Of a DNA stretch of 64,000 nt, positions 3,764 to 54,235 are shown piece by piece (within the stretch, counting starts at the first letter, position 1; each line of letters begins with the position of its first letter). This stretch comes from Norana najaformis (Eukaryota > Annelida > Clitellata > Crassiclitellata > Hormogastridae), in assembly GCA_964023275.1 (NCBI GenBank), contig OZ029915.1, positions 16,818,275 through 16,882,274 of the forward strand, read 5' to 3'. Below the pieces are notes generated by a model. The model saw only the letters and a program-made list of their open reading frames with translations. It was not told the origin of the DNA and did not search any database. The position numbers and the translations under genes are program-made.

Positions 3764-3964
3764 TACGAGTTGGCACTAGTCATGGACGCAGTTCAAGTTT
3801 TGTTAATCGCTGTCAACAAAATTGTCCAACACAAGCCGAACGTCTTCCATTCGACTATGAGAGATGGAAGCTTCTCTAACAACGGAACCGAGGTAATCGA
3901 CTGTGATGCTGAACCTCTACAGCCGTGGAAACATGGATACGACATCATGAAAACCATGCGAGAA
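3764..3964 (+). CDS. AMPA receptor exon A: amino-terminal domain, late part
   Basis: The exon follows a TAG acceptor at 3761-3763 and ends at a GAA/GTAAGG donor, giving 67 codons in phase 0. The segment ALVMDAVQVL matches the ALTYDAVQVM helix of the AMPA receptor amino-terminal domain. It is followed by a spaced Asp-Cys and a Trp-x-x-Gly before an amphipathic helix, in the family's order. Its phase-0 end joins cleanly to exon B, giving MRE-IHIPGFFSGNIQFD across the junction. The frame stays open past the donor into transposon copy 2, only 43 bases downstream, so the raw ORF is longer than the exon. The assignment is inferred from motif, phase and order. Confidence 0.75.
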
Positions 3965-4007
3965 GTAAGGATCTGCCGTATAATAGAAACTTGTAACTAT
4001 AGGCTAA

Positions 4008-4569
4008 CATTGGATCACAACGATTTTGCTACTGAAAATAATGCATGTGCCTTGAGCGATGAGCATGGAGAGAGATTCCATCAAGACATCTCCACCTTTG
4101 AAGCAAGATATCAGGGCCACTGCAATTCCAACATGATGGGCGATTACTGCTGGTTTCTGCAGCGGGCAACAGCTGCCACTCACAAGCGCAAGAGCAAGTG
4201 TCTAAAGCACTTTTGAACTCGTATAGAGTTAAGATAGAGACAAAATTTCGAAATGTATGCTTTCATCTGAGTAACATACATATATTTATATTACATCTTA
4301 AAACATATTTTAATTTCAAGTTATAAAAGAATAACATTTTGTTTCTTGTTATGAATACTCTGACTTTGCATAATTACACAGTTATAAGGAAATACTAGTT
4401 CTGTAAAGAGTTTGCATACTGTAAGTATTAGCATGTATGCTGCATATCTTAAGATCCTGACTTGCTACACAAAATCTGACTTCAGATTTGGAATCAGCAG
4501 ATTCGATTTAGTGTAGTACACATAACATATGCCTAGTAGCAGGCGAAAATGTTTTTGTGTGATCCAGTG
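4008..4569 (+). mobile_element. TIR DNA transposon, copy 2 (internally deleted, 562 bp)
   Basis: The left end reads CATTGGATCACAACG and the right end in reverse complement reads CACTGGATCACAC, both continuing with T-rich sequence and GCTGATTC-like blocks. It is flanked by TAA at 4005-4007 and 4570-4572. Only the last about 60 codons of the transposase remain (4049-4215, including DEHGERFHQDIS and MMGDYCWFLQ, ending KHF-stop). It is a deletion derivative dependent on another source of transposase. It starts 43 bases after the donor of receptor exon A. Confidence 0.82.
4049..4216 (+). pseudogene. Transposase C-terminal remnant of copy 2
   Basis: The segment encodes LSDEHGERFHQDISTFEARY, then MMGDYCWFLQ and a basic end KHF before TGA. 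It matches the tail of copy 1 after its premature stop (ERFHQDIKTMENRYQG, MMADYCW). Frame and stop are intact, but everything upstream is deleted. It is in the same frame as receptor exon A with no stop between them. Confidence 0.85.
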
Positions 4570-7092: not shown

Positions 7093-8004
7093 TGTCGCAA
7101 CAGCCGCGATACATCTGTTACATTTGTCACGAGTATACGATTAATTCAAGCCTCAAAGACGCAGCATGACTGCATTTATTTAGAAAACATATGAGCTCTA
7201 CTTCGGTTGAAAAATTGGTGATCAAGACAAACCCTGGGCTCCTCACATTTGCTGCGCAACATGATTGTACTGTCGATCTGAGACACTCGGAGGTCAATAC
7301 CCTTCGCAGTTCCGATGATATGCGAGAACAGAAGGACTGTTACTTCTGTCTGACCAATGTTTCTGGCTTCTCTGCTAAAACTAAGAAATCTATTGAATAA
7401 TTAATCCAATCTGCCTTCAGTCATCAAACTATTGCCAAATGACAACAGTCTGCCAGTACCAAAGCCACCAAAGACATGGAGCCTAGATGAGGCAGACGAA
7501 GATGCCACAATGCACGAGCCAGACATGGAAAAACGACATTGTTCTAGATTTTGAACCATTTATGTATGTCCGATGATAACACAGTCAGAATTAAATGACC
7601 TGCTGAGGGACTTAGGTTTGTCAAAAACAAAAGCAGAACTACTTGGTTCAAGACTGTAGTATGGGGTTTGCTATCACCAGGTACGAAAATTTCTGTCTTT
7701 CGGACCCTCCAAGAAGATATGAGAAATTTCTTGGCGCAGGATGACAACCTCTGTTTCTGCACTGACATTGATGAGTTGTTCACGGCTTAAGGTTGTGAGC
7801 ATGACCCACAACAGTAACATCTTTTTATAGATTCGTCACTGGTAAGCCTGAAAGCTGTCTTGTTAGTACCTATTATCTGTGCACATTGCGACCATGAAAG
7901 AACGGTATCAGGGCAACTGGAACTCATCCGACTATTGTTGGACACTGAAACGAGAAGCATCAGATAATGAGTGCAAGAGAAAATCAGCAGCAAAACACTT
8001 TTAG
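7093..8004 (+). pseudogene. TIR transposon copy 3: decayed, internally deleted transposase
   Basis: Family blocks appear in order with several frameshifts and stops. CYICHEYT is at about 7116, REQKDCYFCLTNVSGF at about 7325, LNDLLRDLGLSK at about 7595, LFIDSSL..LKAVLL at about 7824, and RYQGNW with SDYCWTLKRE at about 7898-7960, ending KHF-stop at 8004. The central part containing the VDLK and FLCLWDSR blocks is deleted between about 7880 and 7895. No convincing terminal repeats were found, so element edges are not assigned. Confidence 0.78.
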
Positions 8005-15114: not shown

Positions 15115-17368
15115 CACTGGTCACCATGATTTTTGCTACCTTAATAAATTTTTGTGATTCTAGCAGTGTTCCAGTCATTGATTTTAGAAATGAACACGGA
15201 ATTTCTCTATCACCTGAGGTTTTGGTGAAATTGCCAAAAAGTTTGCATCATAATGGTTTCCATTGATAATCGTAATTAACATATTGCTAGTGCTTCATTG
15301 ATAATTTTGACATACTTACTAATTGTGTAAGTGACGTAATGAATATATCTATTGCGTCACTAACATAATTGGGGCTCACCATTATGGTAGTATTTTCCTG
15401 CTTTTCAAACGTTAAAGTATCGTGGTGAGTTCAAGCACGTAAATGTGACAACAGCTGTGATACGGTTTGTTACATCTGTGGTGAGTTCCTTTTAAATCTC
15501 AAAAAAAGACCATGGCTCCGCTTGTTAACAAAACGTATGAACTGTATTTTCGATGTAAAGTTGGCGATCAGGATAATGGTTGGGCTCCTCATATTCCTTG
15601 TACATATTACGCAGTCAATCTCAGAGCATGGGTTACTGGTTCTCGGCCGTCTATGTCGTTTGCTGTGCCAATGATATGGCGGGAGCAGAAAGATCATGTT
15701 TCAGACTGTTATTTGTGTCTGACAAATGTTTTCGGCCATTCCTCCAAAAGCAAGAAATCATTTGAATATCCTAATCTTCCATCGGCACTGAGACCACTAC
15801 CACATGACAGTCTTTCTGTGCCCAAACCACCGGCTGTTTGGACCATCGACGATGTTGATGATACTGTGACAGAGGAAACAGAAGACTCCATTGATCCTGA
15901 TTTCCAACCACTGTAATGCTGTAAGCATCGTTTGATAACTCAGCCTGAACTAAATGACCTAGTCAGGGACTTAAATTTATCAAACAGTCAAGCGGAATTG
16001 CTGGGCTCTCGGCCTTCAGGGATGGAATCTGCTTTCACAAGGAACTAAAGTTTCTGTATTTCGCAAGCGACATGACGATTTGATCAAGTTTTTTGTTAAA
16101 AACGATACTTTATGTTTCTGCAAAGATGTTGAAGGATTGTTTGGAGCACTAGGTTGTCAATATGATCCTCAAGAATAGCAACTGTTCATCGATTCATCAA
16201 GTTTGAGCCTTAAAGCAGTTTTATTACACAATGGAAATATCTGTCCATCAATAATTGTAGGGCATGCTGTGCACATGAAAGATCATCATCATCGTCATCA
16301 CAAACCATGGGTACAATGCCCGTAGGTGTCCAGTGCCATTTTCGCTATGAAAGAGACGTATGATAATATAAAGCTGTTACTGTCATCTATCCAGTACAGT
16401 AAGCATAACTTGAATTTGTGTGGTGATTTGAAAGTTATAGCACTTCTTGTTGGGCTGCAGCTAGGGTATACAAAGTATTGTTGCTTCATTTGTGAGTGGG
16501 ACAGTCGTGCAAGAGATTCCCATTACATCAAGAAGGACTGGCCACGTCGCAAACGTTTGGTACCAGGCCAAAAAAACGTTCATCACTAACCACTTATTGA
16601 TCCCTGTAACGTTTTCTGGCCATTTCTTCACGTAAAGCTTGGACTAGTGAAGAACTTTGTCAAGGCATTGAAGAAAGAGGGAAAGGGGTTCAAGTACTTA
16701 AGAGACAAGTTTCCTCACATAAGTGAGGCCAAGATACGAGAAGGCATATTTCTTGGTTCACAGATCAGGGAACTGATGAATGACATTCACTTTGACGAAC
16801 TGAGAAGTAAAGTTGAGTTAACTGCATGGCGGTCTTTGAAGGACATTGTCAACAACTTTCTGGGCAATAACAAATCACCAAATTATGTTGAGCTGGTTGA
16901 AAAGATGCTTGAAGCATTTCATCTGATGGAGGTAAAAATGTCACTAAAAATACATTTCTTGCATTCCCATCTGCATTTCTTCCCAGCAAATCTTGGGGAC
17001 GTCAGCGATCAACATGGCGAACGATTTCATCAGAGCATTGCCACAATGGAGAAACGATACCTGGGTGTGTGGAGCACTAGTATGCTGGCTGATTACTGTT
17101 GGACACTGATCAGATAAGCTCTTGACATTGAAAACAAATGCAAATCAGCTGAAGTTTGGTTTCAGAGTGTCCACAAATTAAATTACAAGTACATTGTAAA
17201 TGTATGCACTAAGTACATTTTTAGATGTTTCTTGCATACCATTTTTCTCAAAAACCTTACGTGATACAAAAATTCTGAGAACACCATTGTATTCAGCGTG
17301 CCAAATTCTACATAAAACCACCTGAAGTTTCTTCGGAAGCACAGAAAGTTAAAATTTGTTGACCAGTG
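15115..17368 (+). mobile_element. TIR DNA transposon, copy 4 (decayed)
   Basis: The element is 2,254 bp. The left end reads CACTGGTCACCATG and the right end in reverse complement reads CACTGGTCAACAAA. It is flanked by TTA at 15112-15114 and 17369-17371; the target was a TTA-rich microsatellite, so the exact duplication cannot be distinguished from target sequence. It sits in the receptor intron between exons C and D. Both ends agree with copies 1, 2 and 5 in sequence and target choice. Confidence 0.82.
15430..17117 (+). pseudogene. Transposase pseudogene of TIR transposon copy 4
   Basis: It carries the same ordered blocks as copy 1: CDTVCYICGEF, then (after a frameshift near 15515) VGDQDNGWAPHIPC, FAVPMIWREQ and DCYLCLTNVFG. 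A further shift near 15915 leads to LNDLVRDLNLS, LFIDSSSLSLKAVLL, CGDLKVIALLVGLQ, CCFICEWDSR, HVKLGLVKNFVKAL, FLHSHLHFFPANLG, QHGERFHQ and MLADYCWTLIR-stop. At least two frameshifts and four stops make it inactive. A 64-bp insert flanked by 8-bp repeats (ATGAAAGA at 16275 and 16347) interrupts it. Confidence 0.88.
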
Positions 17369-21606: not shown

Positions 21607-22740
21607 GGACCTTTACCAATAATATTCCTGTTGTAATTGTAATTGTAAACGAACATTTATAAAGCGCCACTTAGGAAACAGTGGCGCTCCCGACTTGAAC
21701 AAACAAAAAGGATTTCAGGCGTTTGCGGGACTGGGTAGGAGAGAGACTAAGTAACTGAAGCCGCAGGTCAAGAGGAAGGCAGTTCCAGCTGGAAGGGCCA
21801 ACAAAGGCAAAGCTCCTGGACTGGGCAGTTGTAGTGCGGACGCGAGGGACTACCAAAAGACCACGGGTAGCTGAGCGAAGGGAGACATGGGCAGGCAACG
21901 AGGAAACCGGAATACAAAAAGAAGTTAAGTAGGACGGAGCAGAGCCTAGAAGGCAGTTGCGCATAAGGATAAGAATCTTAAAATGGATCCGTTGACTGAC
22001 AGGAAGCCAATGAAGTGAATCACGAATAAAAGTAGATATATGGGCAGACTTTGGAAGACCACCGATAAGGCGTGCAGCAGCATTAAGTATAGACTGAAGC
22101 TTGGAGGTGTTAATTGCAGAAAGTCCAATATAGGCAGCATTGCCAAAGTCAATCATAGTGCAAATCAGGGCATGGACCAAGGTAGTGATCGCATGAAGAG
22201 GAAGCGAGTGACGAATAGAGCGGAGTTGTCGTAGGTGGTAAAGACAAGAGCGGGAGATATTATTTACATGGTCAGTCAGAGAAAGAGTTTGATCCAGGGT
22301 GATTCCGAGGTCACGGACTGAGGAAGAGAAGTGGATATGAGGGAAATTAGAGGAAAGGGAACTAAAGTCAATTTTGCCAAGCTGGACACGGCCACCTAGC
22401 CAGATATATTGAGTCTTATCAGGATTAAGACAGAGGCGGTTAGAAGACATCCAGAGATCTAGAACAGAGGTGGCCTCAAGGATCCGCTCAACCATCAGAG
22501 TGGCTGAGGCAGCCGGGCCATGAGTAAAGGATTGAGTGTCATCAGCATATTGGTGAGACGAAACACCCAAGGGAAGAAGTATACTGGCCAGGTCAGCAGT
22601 ATACAGGATATATAGAAGAGGTGCAAGTACCGAACCCTGTGGAAGACCATAGGGAATGTGAGTCCAGGCAGAGCGAGTGGGCCCAAAAATAACAGAAAGG
22701 GAGCGATCAGAAAGAATGATCGTAAAGGTGCCAGGTGATA
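21607..22740 (-). mobile_element. CR1/L2-type LINE, 5'-truncated, with open RT frame
   Basis: On the minus strand one frame is open for about 355 codons. It includes the RT motif GLPQGSVLAPLLYILYTADL, the catalytic YADDTQ box, LCLNPDKTQ, DLGITLDQTLSLTDHV, LIGGLPKSAHIS, LHWLPVSQRIHFKIL and the C-terminal SFAFVGPSSWNCLPLDLR. The 3'-UTR ends at TTTATAAATG and a TTACAATTACAA tail (minus strand). An uninterrupted 3' half suggests a fairly recent insertion; the 5' half was never copied. Confidence 0.88.
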
Positions 22741-22799
22741 TTTACCGTACAACATTTGCTTTACTGTGCTTCCTTCTGCAACATGCCTGTTCTAACTTA

Positions 22800-23100: not shown

Positions 23101-23488
23101 TAGATTTTTTGCTTGATGGGCAGCCTGTTTAAGGAATGCAGTGTAGAGGTCTTTGTTATGTCTCTGGTCAGAAAATTTTGATTTTTCTCTGTGTGACCTA
23201 TTTCCCTCTATCTGTCCTTTTAGTATACTTAATACTGGTTTCATTAGTACTCTTCTCACGTAGTTCTTTAGGGCAAAGGTTCCATAGTTCTTGCATTCTG
23301 TCAGGTCTCCTTTCTGTGAAATTTGCACCAATATGGACTTTGTCCATTCCTCAGGTATTTTGCCCTCTTTCTGTATACAGCTGCTAAGTTTCTTTTGCAT
23401 GCATGTAAGTATGAACAGAAGAGGATGCATGTGCAGTGTGAGTGTATGTCTATTATCCTGTGCCTTGTCTTGTGCATGGTGTGTGCAG

Positions 23489-23844
23489 GAGGCGGACATG
23501 GCAATTGCGCCACTGACGATAACGTCGAGTCGTGAGAGCGTCATTGACTTTTCAAAGCCATTCATGAGCCTCGGCATCAGCATAATGATCAAAAAGCCAA
23601 CCAAAGACACGCCTGGCGTCTTCTCCTTCATGAATCCTCTGTCCTACGAGGTCTGGATGTGCGTCATCTTCGCCTACATTGGAGTGAGTGTGGTCCTCTT
23701 TCTCGTCAGTCGATTCAGTCCCTTTGAATGGCACATCGAAGACAACCAAGAGGGAGTGGCAGTTGCCAACAACTTCACCATCTTTAACAGTCTCTGGTTC
23801 TCACTTGGAGCTTTTATGCAGCAAGGCGTGGACATCGAACCGAG
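23489..23844 (+). CDS. AMPA receptor exon D: S1, M1 and pore loop
   Basis: The exon follows a GTGTGTGCAG acceptor, with 118 full codons plus two bases. It carries the Pro, Thr and Arg ligand contacts in APLTIT..R, then [16 protein letters not shown], and transmembrane segment M1 (about [19 protein letters not shown]). Next comes SRFSPFEWH and the pore [14 protein letters not shown]. The Q/R position is a genomically encoded Gln, which in this family gives calcium-permeable channels unless edited. It ends at an AG/GTACAC donor in phase 2, and the next exon supplies the third base of an Arg codon. Confidence 0.97.
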
Positions 23845-23914
23845 GTACACAACTTAGCATCACGTGACATAATATGACATAGCTGATGCAGTCTAACCGA
23901 GCATTTTATGTAGT

Positions 23915-34140: not shown

Positions 34141-34748
34141 CAACTTAGGTGCAGAGTAGAAAAAGAAACATGTAAAGTAAATACAGGAAAAACATATGGT
34201 TAAGAAGTAAGATAACTGATTAAAAATTACTCTCTTTCAACGTCCATGTGTCTGTTTTACGGCGATTCCTGCTTGGCCGGAATAAATATTATTATTGACC
34301 AATGTGATACAGATTTCAGATTTTAAAGAAACACTTTTATTTTCACCTTTAAAATGTTATGAATTTGATATTTAAAGTAACCCATATCATAGCACAATTA
34401 TTTTGTTTTAGCTTTTGTGCCAGAAAGAATAAAATCCGAGAGCTCATTTATAGTCCTGCTCTTGCTGAAGTTTTTGTGTTGTCTTCAAAAATTCAACTTC
34501 TTTGGGAGGCTTTAAAATGCTTAATGATACACTGAAATCACCCAGTAGAAGTATTTTACTAGTTTACCTCGTACATGTAACTAACCTTTTACACTAGTTC
34601 ATTGTGCTCATGAGACTGGAAGGGAGGGATCAGGTAATATACGGAACCCATTCCAATTCTCGTTTATGATCAGCTGTCTGAATGTATTGGCCAGCCATGT
34701 CAAAATGCTACTGGACAGTTTGCATATGGGCTCCACCATATGTGAAGT

Positions 34749-34801
34749 CTAGCATTCAGCTAATAGACAAACAACATGCGAGATCTGAATAACTTAATGG
34801 G

Positions 34802-34851
<50 letters not shown>

Positions 34852-34892
34852 CCCATTAAGTTATATATATATATATATACATCCCCATTAAG

Positions 34893-34937
<45 letters not shown>

Positions 34938-35009
34938 CCCATTAAGTTATTCAGATCTCGCATGTTGTTTGTCTATTAGCTGAATGCTAGATCTGAATAA
35001 CTTAATGGG

Positions 35010-35069
<60 letters not shown>

Positions 35070-35100
35070 CCCATTAAGTTATTCAGATCTCGCATGTTGT
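34749..35100. repeat. Nested palindromes around AT repeats
   Basis: The sequence from CTAGCATTCAGCTAATAGAC to AATGGGGATGTA (34749-34807) is repeated as its exact reverse complement at 34933-34990, with AT tracts and two further ACATCCCCATTAAG units between them. A second palindrome follows: GATCTGAATAACTTAATGGG (34990-35010) against its reverse complement (about 35070-35090), around a 50-bp AT tract. Such arms could form cruciforms or long hairpins. An assembly artefact is possible. Confidence 0.85.
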
Positions 35101-35259
35101 TATATATATATATATATATATACAAACAAAATGTGAGATCTGAATAACTTAATGGGGATATATATATATATATATATATACAAAAAATGTGAGATCTGAA
35201 TAATTTAATGGGAATATATATATATAGACAAATAAAATGTGAAATCTTAATAACTTAAT

Positions 35260-35313
<54 letters not shown>

Positions 35314-35450
35314 TATTAATATATGTAGACATATATAGACAAACAAAATGTGAAATCTGAATAACTTAATGAGAATATATATATATATATATATCTATAT
35401 CTAGACAAACAAAATGTGAGATCTGAATAACTTAATGGGGATATATATAT
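35101..35450 (+). repeat. Five direct repeats with AT-tract spacers
   Basis: The unit ACAAACAAAATGTGAGATCT followed by GAATAACTTAATGGGGATAT occurs at about 35123, 35181, 35229, 35340 and 35405 with small changes, each followed by an AT run of different length. It is the same unit as in the palindromes at 34749-35100. The array ends 45 bases before receptor exon I. Confidence 0.85.
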
Positions 35451-47980: not shown

Positions 47981-48149
47981 ACATAAATAAGCAATCTGGG
48001 CTAACTCAGCTCAAGCACCTATCAGCATTAGTTTCAGGAGTTTCTAAAGAGATGTGTAAAAGGCTTGACATTGTTACCATTACCAGCACTTTTACTTGGT
48101 TTATCTACAAGTGCATGATAAAATGTTAGAACTTGATAACTCTTATTAC

Positions 48150-48392
48150 CTGCATAAGTGATTGCATCCTCTTCTAGCAGATCAGCTGAGGCCATCATTT
48201 CTCTGAGCTCTTCTCTGTTGATAGTCTGGCCTAATTTGAAAAACAGTTTTTCAATGTCATCCACGGTTATTTGACCACTGCAATCGACATCAAAGACTTT
48301 GAAAGTATCAATCAACTCTTCATCAGCTGTCATTTTCTTGATCTTGCCCGAAGTCATCGAGATGAACTCATCTAGAGTAATCTTGCTACTGC
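48150..48392 (-). CDS. Centrin-like EF-hand protein, exon 3
   Basis: The exon follows a GAATTTCAG acceptor; its first two bases complete a Gly codon. It encodes SSKITLDEFISMTSGKIKK, then the third EF-hand FKVFDVDCSGQITVDDIEKL (loop DVDCSGQITVDD). It ends with the start of a fourth hand, ASADLLEEDAITYA, whose loop looks degenerate. The second loop, completed across the exon junction, is DTEGSSKITLDE. It ends in phase 1 at a G/GTAATA donor. The final exon should finish the fourth hand and was not found in 44-48 kb. Centrins act in centrioles, basal bodies and nuclear pores; which role applies here cannot be told. Confidence 0.85.
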
Positions 48393-49094
48393 CTGAAATT
48401 CACAACTAGGTTGATAAGCTTCCATTATTTATGCACAAGACATGCAGAACACACAAAATATGATTCAGCCTACTGAATCACTCCCTTTATAACTGGCTAG
48501 AAGCCAGTTGCTAGGGGTGAGAGGCTGGTTGACTTAGTTCTTGTGGGAAAGAGGCCAAAGTCTAGAAGCTTGTTGTTAGGGATAAGAAGCCTGTTGCTAG
48601 GGACTAAAGGTCAAAGTTGAAATGTCAACAGCTGGAGGGAGGTATACTGTCACAGTAAGTTTACCGAAGTAATGATAATTCAGCATGAGTGATGAAAAAA
48701 GAAGAACATGAGACTATCATGTATCTGTAATAATTAAAGTAAAAAATTGAAGTTCAAGAATGAGTGTTATCAGCCATACAACTGAAATGATGCATTAAAG
48801 ACAGGAAATATTATGTGCCGTTACTTTCAAATCTGCCCAAATCTTCATGTATACAAATAATTTAAATTTTGTACTATTAAAATTTCAACCATCAGTTTTG
48901 AATTGATGGTTAGCACGCTAAATATTAGCTAATTATGGTATGCATGATGCTCTGCAGTTTGTTAAGAAACATAAAATATAGTAAACACCTGTGTGTAGCA
49001 TCGTGTAGGCCTAATAAGTCTCATATTCCTTGGAACTTAAAATAACTGGTGACTTCAAAACGCACATATTCTTTGTATGCTAAAATGACTTATA
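48393..49094. other. Intron of centrin-like gene
   Basis: AT-rich intron between exons 2 and 3. A short tandem (GAAG(C)CTGTTGCTAGGGA-like) occurs at 48490-48610. Confidence 0.5.
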
Positions 49095-49499: not shown

Positions 49500-51287
49500 C
49501 TGGAAAAGTAAAATTCAATATTATACAACACTTGAATCAGATACCTACCTTATTGAACAGTAAATCCATTTTATCTATTTAAAATAGTTTTAGGTGAAAC
49601 AGCCACATCATAAACTGCTGTCTTATACTTTGGTCTGCTACAGATATCTTCACAGGCATGCCTAGGCTGTATATTTTGTCCCTTTGAACAGGTGAACTCA
49701 GTTTTTGTGAAAATTAATTTACTCTAAGGCAGAAATGTCTGGCATAAGTATTTTTCTGAAATTTATATGCTTCAAAGTGATCGGTGCTGGCAGATGTGTC
49801 GGCATGGTTTACGGAATGGGTGCCATTGGCAGATTCAGGAGTTTGAAGTGGCCAAGTAAGTAAGGAAGTATATGCTTTATGTCGGCAAAAATTTTGATGA
49901 GTTTTTTCTTCAACACCAATTAGATGGCTATTTCCAAATCTCTACATTTATGACCTTCTTTGCTAGTCTTAGTTTTCATGGTGCATTCGATCTTTCCTTC
50001 CACACATTCCACTGCATGATTTATTTTTTGCACACTGTTGCATAAATTAATTACCTTTCTCCCCATCAGACCACCCAGGCTTTTAGATCTTCTGGAAAAG
50101 TTGTGCTCTAAAAATTTTACCTTTAAGCCTTATACATACAGAAGTGGCAGGGCATTAGCATATTTGCTCCACCACTTTTGAGTGGGTGCCTGGCCTACTG
50201 GCACCTTCGTGCCGACAACGTTTGGTGCTAGCAAAAGATAAGTTCAGCATTTTAATTTGATTGTTTATGCCATGTTCTCTTATAACTAATGTGCATTGTT
50301 TGCTCTCAACTTTTAAATATAGGTTTCAAATTCCGGACAAAGCTAACCAAAGCATTTCAACATGTGTCTATTTTTAAATGCAAGCAATATCATCCAAAGC
50401 CAGATTGCCAATCTGGCACAAAGGCCTAGCATCAGATGTGCATTCAGTTAAATTGTCAGGCCGTTTGCTCATTAAAGATGCCAGTTTTATTTGTTCTTAA
50501 AATTGTGAAATTTTAGAGTGTTTCATCCCTAATAAGTAAGTTTTCCATGGTTTTAATAACTTATGGGGTGCCAGACAGTCTAAGAGTTAGCATGCTGGAC
50601 TGTCGAGTTTAAATCCTAGCCCAGGCTAGAAAGGTATTTCAAGATTCCTGTTCCACTAGTGTCCACTGTAAAATGAGTATTGATTGTGCACAAGCAGTGG
50701 AAAGATCAAGTGACAAGAGAGAGGACTGGCCACCCGCCCGCTGAGGTTAAGAAAATGAAGTAGCTAATACTGGATACCTGTCAAAATTGGTTTTAGGAAC
50801 TGCTCTTTGTCTACTTTGACACTTTACGAATCCTCTGCTATTGCTTGGCCATTGAAATTGCTAACAGTGTGGTTAACATTGATGACACCCAGTGTCAGTT
50901 TTTTAAACTGCTTCAGAGGAAGGTCACCAAGTATTAAATCAGGAAACCATCTCATGAAGTACATCATGATCATAACAGACATACCGGTATACATTTGCTA
51001 CAGTTGTGATAACGGCATATTCAGTGAGGAGTTGCAGAAACTGACACTAGGTGTCACCCACACATACAGATGTCCAAACTACAGAGATCATACAAGGTTT
51101 TTTACTTCTACTGAGACCCCACTGATATACTATATACCAGGTCAAAGATCACACCAGTTTTGTCACATCCACAGAGTCCACCGAAAATAATATAATACAT
51201 GCATCAACTTATGTCCAGTTGGGTTGGATGTGTCCTGTTAAGGAATCTGGCCAGTGGAAGACTGCATTTGTTATGCACCATAGATTA
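49500..51287. other. Intron 1 of the centrin-like gene, part left of transposon copy 5
   Basis: No host exon recognised. A + strand open frame at 50807-51190 (127 codons) matches nothing I know. A tRNA-SINE-like remnant lies at 50560-50640. Confidence 0.4.
50560..50640 (+). repeat. tRNA-derived SINE-like sequence
   Basis: AGTCTAAGAGTTAGCATGCTGG and GTCGAGTTTAAATCCTAG approximate the A and B boxes of a tRNA promoter at the usual spacing. Not a foldable tRNA. Confidence 0.35.
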
Positions 51288-51486
51288 CACGGTGCAACAA
51301 ATCTTTATTTTTTTGTTCCTGGGTAGTAAGTGTTATTTCCTAATTGCTTATGCCTCAAAGGCATAGAAAATAGCTATTATTCCCCATAAACTTTGAGATT
51401 GTGACCAGGACAGTGATATTCTGAAATTTGCCTACTTTACAGAACATTCAAGATGAATTCAGGCTGAGTAAAGTTGGAGTAGCTGC

Positions 51487-51565
51487 TAGAACGTTCTAGA
51501 CTTTTGAGAATATTCTAGGACGTCCAAGAACCTTCTGGAACTTTCCAGAAATATAAATATAAATA
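51487..51565 (+). promoter_or_regulatory. Heat-shock-element array and TATA box of transposon copy 5
   Basis: From 51508 to 51550, GAA and TTC alternate every 5 bases: GAA 51508, TTC 51513, GGA 51518, TCC 51523, GAA 51528, TTC 51533, GAA 51538, TTC 51543, GAA 51548. That is nine pentamers in register, seven of them perfect. A further GAA/TTC pair is at 51489 and 51494. HSF trimers are known to bind at least three such units. A TATA-type box (ATATAAATATAAATA) follows directly at 51551-51565, and the transposase ATG is 64 bases downstream. Confidence 0.8.
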
Positions 51566-51628
51566 CAGCAGCCTTAAAGCCCACCAGTTCGGTTTAATTC
51601 TAGCTGCCTAAGTGGATACATATCTGAG

Positions 51629-53455
51629 ATGGCATCAAGAGGCTGCAAGCATCTGGCAGATGCATTTTGCTATGTCTGAGGCCAATTTATCAAGACAAGA
51701 GCGAAAAAGTACTCCTTGGAAGTATCTGCTAAGATGTATGAAGGCTACATGGCATATTTCAGCATTTCTGTTGGGATCAAGACAAACCATGGGCACCTCA
51801 TTTCACTTATGAGCACTGCAAAAAATGCTGGAGGGTAACATGGACAATTGATACTCACATAGATGGTGACATCTTATGTTATAAAAGTTTTAAAAGTTTG
51901 AAATGTTGTAATTTCACAATTTTTTAAAATTCCTTTAAATTTATTGAACAAATATATGATATGTGAAATATGTTGCAAGAATGTCTTACACATTAGTCAT
52001 GGGTGAAAAACATTTATTTGGTTATGATAACAATTTCATTTTGTTCTTTTGCAGGTTGGTACAGAGGGGAAAAGAGAGTCATGAAGTTTGCTATCCCAAG
52101 AATTTGGCAAGAAACCACTGACCACTCAAGCAATTGGCAAGAATGCACCTGCTATCACATATACAGACCTTCCTTCATCCATCGCCCTTATGCCACACTG
52201 CCCTGAGCTTCTTGTACCCACTCCTCTGGAGAGAAAGCAGTCGTCTTCAGAAGAGAGCAGTAAGTCAGAAAGCGAGGAACATGTTGGAGATCCAGATTAC
52301 AATTTCTGAGGTGAGAAGAGAAACCCATACTATCCCAACCAAAAAGACCTCAACGACTTGATCAGAATCTTGGTCTCACCAAGTCCAATGCCAAGTTTTT
52401 GACGTCTAGGCTCAAGCAGTGGAATTTGTTGGATGAAAGTGTGCAAGTCACAGATCAGAGGACACATCACCAAGCTTTTTCTAGTTTCTTCACCAGTCAA
52501 GATGGGCTCTGCTTCTGCCACAATGTGACCGGTCTGTTCGAGGCAATTGGAATCGACTGTAACCCAAACGAGTGGCGTCTCTTCATTGACAGTTCATCCA
52601 GGAGCCTCAAAGCTGTGCTGCTCCACAACATTAACAAGTACCTGTCTCTTCCTCTGGCTCACTCGGTGCACCTCAACGAGGATTACAACAGCATCAAGAA
52701 CTTACTGGATGCCTTGATGTATGATGAGTACGGCTGGGAGGTCATTGGAGACTTCAAAATGATGGGTCTCCGAGGCAGTTTTACCAAGTTTCCTGGCTAC
52801 CTTTGCCTTTGGGACAGCATGAACAACAAGATGCACTACCACAGGCAGGACTGGCCACAGTGGACCAAGTTCTCTGGGGGAAGGAACAACTTCAAGTGGC
52901 AGCCACTGGTGGACCCCAGAAGGTGCTGATGCCACCACTGCACATCAAATTGGGCCTTATGAAACAATTTATCACAGCTCTAGATAAGGAGTCAGCAGCC
53001 TTCAAGTACCTTCAAGACTTCTTCCCTAAGCTGTCTGAGGCAAACGTCAAAGCCATTGTCTTCATCAGACCACAGATAAAGAAGATCCTGGAGGGCAAAG
53101 AATTCCCCAAGAAGCTCACTAGGAAGGAGAAAGCGACTTGGAACAGGTTTGTCACAGTGGTTAGGGGCTTCCTGGTCAATCACAAGGCTGAAAACTGTGG
53201 AGCTGGTTGATACTCTGGTAAAGAATTATGGCAAAATGGGCTGCAGAATATCCCTCAAAGCTCATATCCTTGATGCTCATCTTGATAACTTTGAGGAGAA
53301 CATGGGAACATACTGGGAGGAGCACTTCCCCCAGGATATACTGGGCTTTGAACGTCGCTACCAAGGAGAAAATGATGGGAGACTACATTTGGGGGCTGAT
53401 TCATGAGAGTGATTTACAGTATAATCATATATCTAAAAAAATTACTCACTTCTAA
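51629..53455 (+). pseudogene. Transposase pseudogene of TIR transposon copy 5, two exons
   Basis: ATG at 51629 opens MASRGCKHLADAFCYV, matching the start of copy 1. A stop where copy 1 has the second Cys, and a frameshift before DQDKPWAPHFTYEHC, break it. A likely 189-bp intron (donor GATG/GTGACA at 51866, acceptor TTTTGCAG ending 52054) precedes RGEKRVMKFAIPRIWQE. Then follow TSRLKQWNLLDESV, EWRLFIDSSSRSLKAVLL, IGDFKMMGLRGSFTKFPGYL, CLWDSM, MPPLHIKLGLMKQF, HILDAHLDNFEEN and MMGDYIWGLIHE. The end KKITHF-stop is at 53455. Several frameshifts separate these. Copy 1 shows no matching intron. Confidence 0.85.
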
Positions 53456-54235
53456 ATCTTTTGTGGTCATTTTGTATAGCTGTATTGTAAATACACGTTA
53501 ATATTGATTCATATGTTGTAGATCTTTTGTGGTGTTCAATAAATGGTCCAATTCAATCCAAAATGGTTCAATTCAATTCAATTCAAATTTTGTGACTTTA
53601 TTTGCACGAAAACACACAAATTCTTCTGTTTCTTCATTGGAAATAGGTAAATTTTGAAATATCATTGTCCTGGTCACAAAAGCAAAGTCTGAAGGGAATA
53701 ACAGCCATATTCCATACTTTTGAGGCATAAGCAAGTAAGAAATAACACTTATTAATTACCCAGGCACAAAACTTGTGTTACTTAGTGTTATTTGAGTTCA
53801 TGCGAGTACTGTTTGGAATGATTAACCAGGATGAACTTTTGCTAAAGCAATAAATATGGTGTTATATAATCAAATAAATAAGTCATTCCAGGACTGCACT
53901 TTCTCTTGCATAGAATAGTTTCTACTTCTGCTGGATTTATCATTTGGGTTAAAAATAATAAAAATATTAGAACTTCCCAGAAGACCATGTGATTCTAAAT
54001 TTTGAGATTATGGTTACCATCTGTGGCCATCCAGTGCTTCAGTGCAATTGCTTTGCACACCAGTGATAACGCTTTCATTGAGCAGGACGTTAGTGAAGAT
54101 TAGCCATTAAAAATTACAGTTTCTGATTATAATTACCAAACCAATCGCCACATCACTTTGATATCATATTAATGGATGAGCCTTGGAATTGTGCAAATTC
54201 TTTCCAATTTTGTCTAGCGTGTATGTATAGTATAC

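Follow-up and report, generated by a model that had tools for sequence, protein, structure and literature searches.

What drives a transposase gene when nine alternating GAA and TTC triplets stand directly ahead of its TATA box? The question is raised by a 64-kb window of the annelid Norana najaformis (contig OZ029915.1, positions 16,818,275 to 16,882,274; coordinates below count from the first base of this window, which is the whole stretch of DNA that was analysed). Here, we examine the array at 51508-51550, the transposon in which it lies, and the alternatives that could account for it. The sequence suggests that the array is probably a genuine cluster of heat shock elements (HSEs) within the transposon's own transposase promoter, formerly driven by heat shock factor (HSF) and now a relic.

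The GAA/TTC array and its expectation by chance

The array reads GAATATTCTAGGACGTCCAAGAACCTTCTGGAACTTTCCAGAA, with GAA and TTC alternating every 5 bases over nine units. Seven of the nine units are perfect, five of them consecutive from 51528 onward, and 25 of 27 motif bases are intact; direct reading of the sequence agrees with the initial annotation of this locus in the spacing, the number of units and the number that are perfect. An HSE is defined by a contiguous run of three or more alternating nGAAn units, which the array contains, and CTNGAANNTTCNAG is the classical heat shock element consensus. The cluster is also wider than first annotated: more perfect units lie at 51442, 51447, 51489 and 51494, of which those at 51489 and 51494 are shifted by one base in phase relative to the array. 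The components of the cluster are as follows.

51442..51507, plus strand: outer HSE units, comprising GAANNTTC at 51442-51449 and a perfect CTNGAANNTTCNAG at 51486-51499
51508..51550, plus strand: nine-unit HSE array with seven perfect units, including a second perfect CTNGAANNTTCNAG at 51535-51548
51508, 51513, 51518, 51523 and 51528, plus strand: units GAA, TTC, GGA (imperfect), TCC (imperfect) and GAA
51533, 51538, 51543 and 51548, plus strand: units TTC, GAA, TTC and GAA, all perfect

A pattern of this kind could be a product of chance or of tandem repetition, without HSF function. Among 300 simulated 64-kb sequences (150 from a second-order and 150 from a fourth-order Markov model), the best nine-unit score ranged from 3 to 5, the value of 5 being attained in 4 of 150 and 5 of 150 sequences, respectively, and never exceeded; the window scores 7. 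When all 32 triplet/complement classes were scored at the same spacing, only ATA, in a TA microsatellite, surpassed the array with a score of 9, and the next classes reached 4. When twelve spacings between 4 and 15 were tried for GAA/TTC itself, the next best score was 5. The two perfect matches to CTNGAANNTTCNAG are the only ones in the window, where 0.11 would be expected, and two matches occurred in none of 100 shuffled sequences. The looser pattern GAANNTTCNNGAANNTTC, allowing up to two mismatches, is not significantly enriched across the window (9 matches against 4.6 expected, with at least 9 in 7 of 100 shuffles); six of the nine matches fall within 51479-51555, and the sole perfect one begins at 51528.

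A tandem repeat would be expected to resemble itself in its spacers as well as in its motifs, and the comparison of these columns bears on that origin. Comparison of the four full decamers of the array shows agreement in 30 of 36 cases for motif columns and in 7 of 24 for spacer columns, the latter approximately the level of unrelated bases. As a yardstick we took all 15 viral-contig stretches holding three perfect GAANNTTC repeats and scored the first match of every stretch. Spacer agreement there ranges from 6 to 12 of 12 comparisons, 13 of the 15 stretches having at least 8 of 12. This yardstick is rough, comprising several near-duplicates, three decamers rather than the four compared here, and stretches chosen for perfect motifs. 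The low spacer agreement nevertheless indicates that the array resembles sites held by their motif more than it resembles a microsatellite. On the other side, such arrays also arise in viral contigs, a setting in which HSF would not be expected, and at least one of them (L012, 6 of 12) has fairly varied spacers. A search of these 15 arrays with P0001, P0030, P0148 and P0130 found no relative (best E 0.085). Taken together, we regard a pattern devoid of HSF function as quite improbable.

The transposon and its probable promoter

The array lies within an element of about 2.5 kb, at approximately 51288-53787, that has CAC...GTG ends, long terminal inverted repeats (TIRs) and TTA flanks; the initial annotation likewise describes a TIR-bounded transposon. 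Its ends are the following.

51285..51287, no strand: left probable target site duplication, TTA, read directly
51288..51441, plus strand: 5' TIR, starting CACGGTG, delimited by alignment with the 3' end
53639..53787, minus strand: 3' TIR, its outer end reading CACTAAG on that strand (53787)
53788..53790, no strand: right probable target site duplication, TTA

On the right side a second GTG|TTA candidate lies 10 bases further in, and the outer end was chosen for its better alignment with the left end. The element is one of four divergent copies of a transposase family within the window, here numbered in order so that the array-bearing copy is copy 4; copies 3 and 4 are each flanked on both sides by the probable 3-bp duplication TTA. 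The window holds TTACAC 22 times and GTGTTA 12 times, so that a 3-base duplication is by itself weak evidence. Transib and RAG1 are associated with a 5-bp target site duplication; none was found at copies 3 and 4, whose flanking 5-mers differ and have only TTA in common.

The predicted fold of the transposase family resembles the RAG1/Transib catalytic fold, and 51-53 of the 53 relatives aligned with copy 1 retain the set of D, D, CxxC, HxxxxH and E; for these reasons the family was placed with EnSpm/CACTA. The CAC..GTG termini of that group (CMC/CMCT) are found here in the CACGGTG at 51288 and the minus-strand CACTAAG, and in copy 3 as CACTGG at each end. The element is described here as a cut-and-paste transposon of EnSpm/CACTA-like type whose transposase is of the RAG1/Transib type, an assignment made from ends, motifs and fold. 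No Pfam transposase model matched any of the four transposase pieces; the scan returned only a weak resemblance to the zf-AD zinc finger at the N-terminus of the copy 1 transposase (1347-1511, E 0.0064, below cut-off). A sequence profile search of the PDB with a family alignment (A3) likewise gave nothing credible, the best E being 0.34.

The probable promoter lies as a whole between the 5' TIR and the transposase ATG.

51552..51565, plus strand: two overlapping TATA boxes, TATAAATATAAATA
51584..51589, plus strand: possible initiator, CCAGTT, about 30 bases 3' of the TATA boxes, proposed by its resemblance to the initiator consensus
51629..53455, plus strand: broken transposase gene, with ATG at 51629, TGA at 51677-51679 and several frame changes

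The last GAA and TATAAATATAAATA are separated by one base (51551), so the TATA-type box that had been placed at the very next base is present but begins at 51552. The distance from the end of the TATA tract at 51565 to the ATG at 51629 is 64 bases, as annotated. The sequence that this ATG opens, MASRGCKHLADAFCYV, aligns with the sturgeon relative P0130 from residue 1, at 80% identity over 49 residues. Because the alignment reaches the first Met of P0130, the ATG is very likely to be the genuine start codon. In hsp70 promoters HSE units likewise precede the TATA box. The likeness to hsp70 proposed for this locus holds insofar as a strong HSE-type cluster stands beside a TATA box and ahead of a real transposase ATG; it does not extend to the spacing, which in hsp70 promoters is wider than here, where nine units (two imperfect) nearly touch the TATA box.

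The position of the array directly inside the 5' TIR raises a further explanation, since elements of the EnSpm/CACTA class, for example plant En/Spm, carry subterminal repeats as binding sites for their own transposase, and the repeats could be such sites that resemble HSEs by coincidence. The 3' subterminal region (53390-53640), however, lacks an array (its best score is 3 of 9) and has no 9-mer, direct or inverted, in common with 51442-51560, which disfavours this explanation. The two full 14-base consensus matches and the TATA box that follows immediately also count against it, and the other copies in the window have no array upstream. We consider transposase-binding sites an unlikely source of the pattern.

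Decay of the element and the other family copies

The transposase gene was mapped by tblastn with the relatives P0130, P0148, P0134, P0217 and P0121. Compared with these relatives, the array-bearing copy has a TGA at codon 17, frame changes, an altered first Cys of CxxC and a deletion across the segment bearing the catalytic Glu; a probable intron ends with TTTTGCAG at 52054. By its sequence this copy is dead, unable to make active transposase because of the early stop, the frameshifts and the loss of the catalytic Glu segment. The TIR pair (144 aligned bases) differs by 19 transitions and 12 transversions, a Kimura two-parameter (K2P) distance of 0.26. If the two TIRs were alike at insertion, each base has since had a chance of change of about 13%, and 25 of 27 intact motif bases would then fit an array that was complete at insertion and has decayed neutrally.

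The remaining copies of the family in the window are these.

1302-2840 and 3764-4216: copy 1, made up of a long open transposase frame and, beyond it, a separate C-terminal fragment
7104-7953: copy 2, no ends found
15115-17368: copy 3, CACTGG at both ends and TTA on both sides, the right flank being a TTA repeat

The ends of copy 3 align with a score of 49 against a maximum of 43 in 50 shuffles. A right-end candidate for copy 1 at 4569 scored 33 against a shuffle maximum of 42, with TTA on the left, TAA on the right and no exact duplication. The piece from the array-bearing copy shows 37-42% protein identity to the three others, and copy 1 used as query gave 29% identity to it. The copy 1 frame itself is 96% identical to the environmental protein P0001.

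Named relatives of the array-bearing copy occur in lamprey, sturgeon, characiform and cypriniform fishes, poison frogs, mantis shrimp and a sea slug, with 47-80% identity over the matched part. This patchy spread may reflect horizontal transfer. Two alignment-derived patterns (A1 and A2) matched 22 and 11 times in viral contigs and 47 and 16 times in genome contigs, and none of these matches encodes a relative; a TIR 22-mer had no match in viral contigs, and tblastn of P0001 in plasmids found none.

The array could also be real HSF-binding DNA that is private to this insertion, having arisen or been captured after it, or being retained in the host as an enhancer of a nearby gene. Among the four copies in the window this is the sole one with an array (none of the three others has one), and its motif bases are well preserved within an otherwise decayed element. 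Neutral decay of a complete array accounts for that preservation equally well, and a location between the TIR and the TATA box and ATG of the transposase is what an element-borne promoter predicts. On balance, an array peculiar to this insertion seems improbable.

Several observations weigh against our preferred interpretation of an element-borne HSE promoter. Over the 600-700 bases upstream of the three other, distant copies in the window no array was found (best 2, 3 and 2 of 9, the scans of copies 2 and 3 ending at the first coding sequence that could be recognised rather than at a known ATG). The initial annotation proposes a subfamily that acquired heat or proteotoxic-stress induction, and reports the array absent from copies 1 and 4 in a numbering that cannot be matched exactly to the one used here. 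The array may be private to this insertion. Two of its central units are imperfect, the outer cluster is a base out of phase, and the last GAA almost abuts the TATA box. The TIRs may have differed at insertion, which makes the decay argument weak, and GAANNTTC arrays are found in viral contigs.

We infer HSF binding, induction, a start site and activity of the ancestor as follows. In an active ancestor, heat or proteotoxic stress would have caused HSF trimers, some three of them next to one another, to bind the alternating GAA/TTC units. Bound HSF, together with the adjacent TATA box, would have directed transcription to start some 30 bases downstream, and transcription at the time of stress would have supplied more transposase to the stressed cell. 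The transposase of the present copy being broken, the remnant would at most serve as a stress-responsive promoter or enhancer in host DNA.

Neighbouring sequences and known heat-responsive elements

The initial annotation proposes that the array lies in an intron of a centrin-like gene. EF-hand coding sequence lies on the minus strand at 48037-48399 and near 49.4-49.5 kb, in both cases at lower coordinates than the element. Past the element, two motif scans found no EF-hand exon, although a short N-terminal exon could escape such scans, and a search for homologs with the EF-hand piece found none. Elsewhere the window contains the following.

21671-22741, minus strand: reverse transcriptase fragment (RVT_1), by eye like a long interspersed element (LINE)
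23288-23857: ionotropic glutamate receptor exon (Lig_chan), with pieces near 14.7 kb and 30.8 kb that look similar by eye
34748-35450: long AT-rich tract of palindromic and tandem repeats

Mobile elements with heat shock promoters are already known. DIRS-1 of Dictyostelium is described as having a heat-shock promoter within its inverted terminal repeats (PMC2685390) and is in this respect a precedent for what is proposed here; it is, however, a retrotransposon with the promoter in its terminal repeats, whereas the present element is of the cut-and-paste type with the array just inside the TIR. Caenorhabditis Helitrons, likewise DNA transposons, are reported to carry many HSEs, and five full-length autonomous Helitrons are counted among the heat-shock-response Helitron-HSE genes (PMC6927752). 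They are rolling-circle elements for which HSF-1 occupancy and heat induction are demonstrated in that report, while for the present element both are predicted. ONSEN of Arabidopsis, cited there as heat-activated (PMC6927752), is a plant copia retrotransposon rather than an animal DNA transposon, and putative HSEs are described in the long terminal repeats (LTRs) of the Cryptococcus retrotransposons TCN3 and TCN12 (PMC12810828). No HSE array before an EnSpm/CACTA transposase, and no animal EnSpm/CACTA-like transposase promoter of this kind, turned up in the literature searched, which lay mostly outside subscription journals.

That an hsp70-like promoter is carried by a lineage of animal EnSpm/CACTA transposons, patchily distributed among lampreys, sturgeons, teleosts, frogs and invertebrates, is conceivable but doubtful on the present sequences. 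An array private to one dead copy would be a curiosity. If sister copies prove to have it, the family would represent an animal cut-and-paste transposon wired directly to HSF, and another class of DNA element, beside the Helitrons, that seeds HSF sites.
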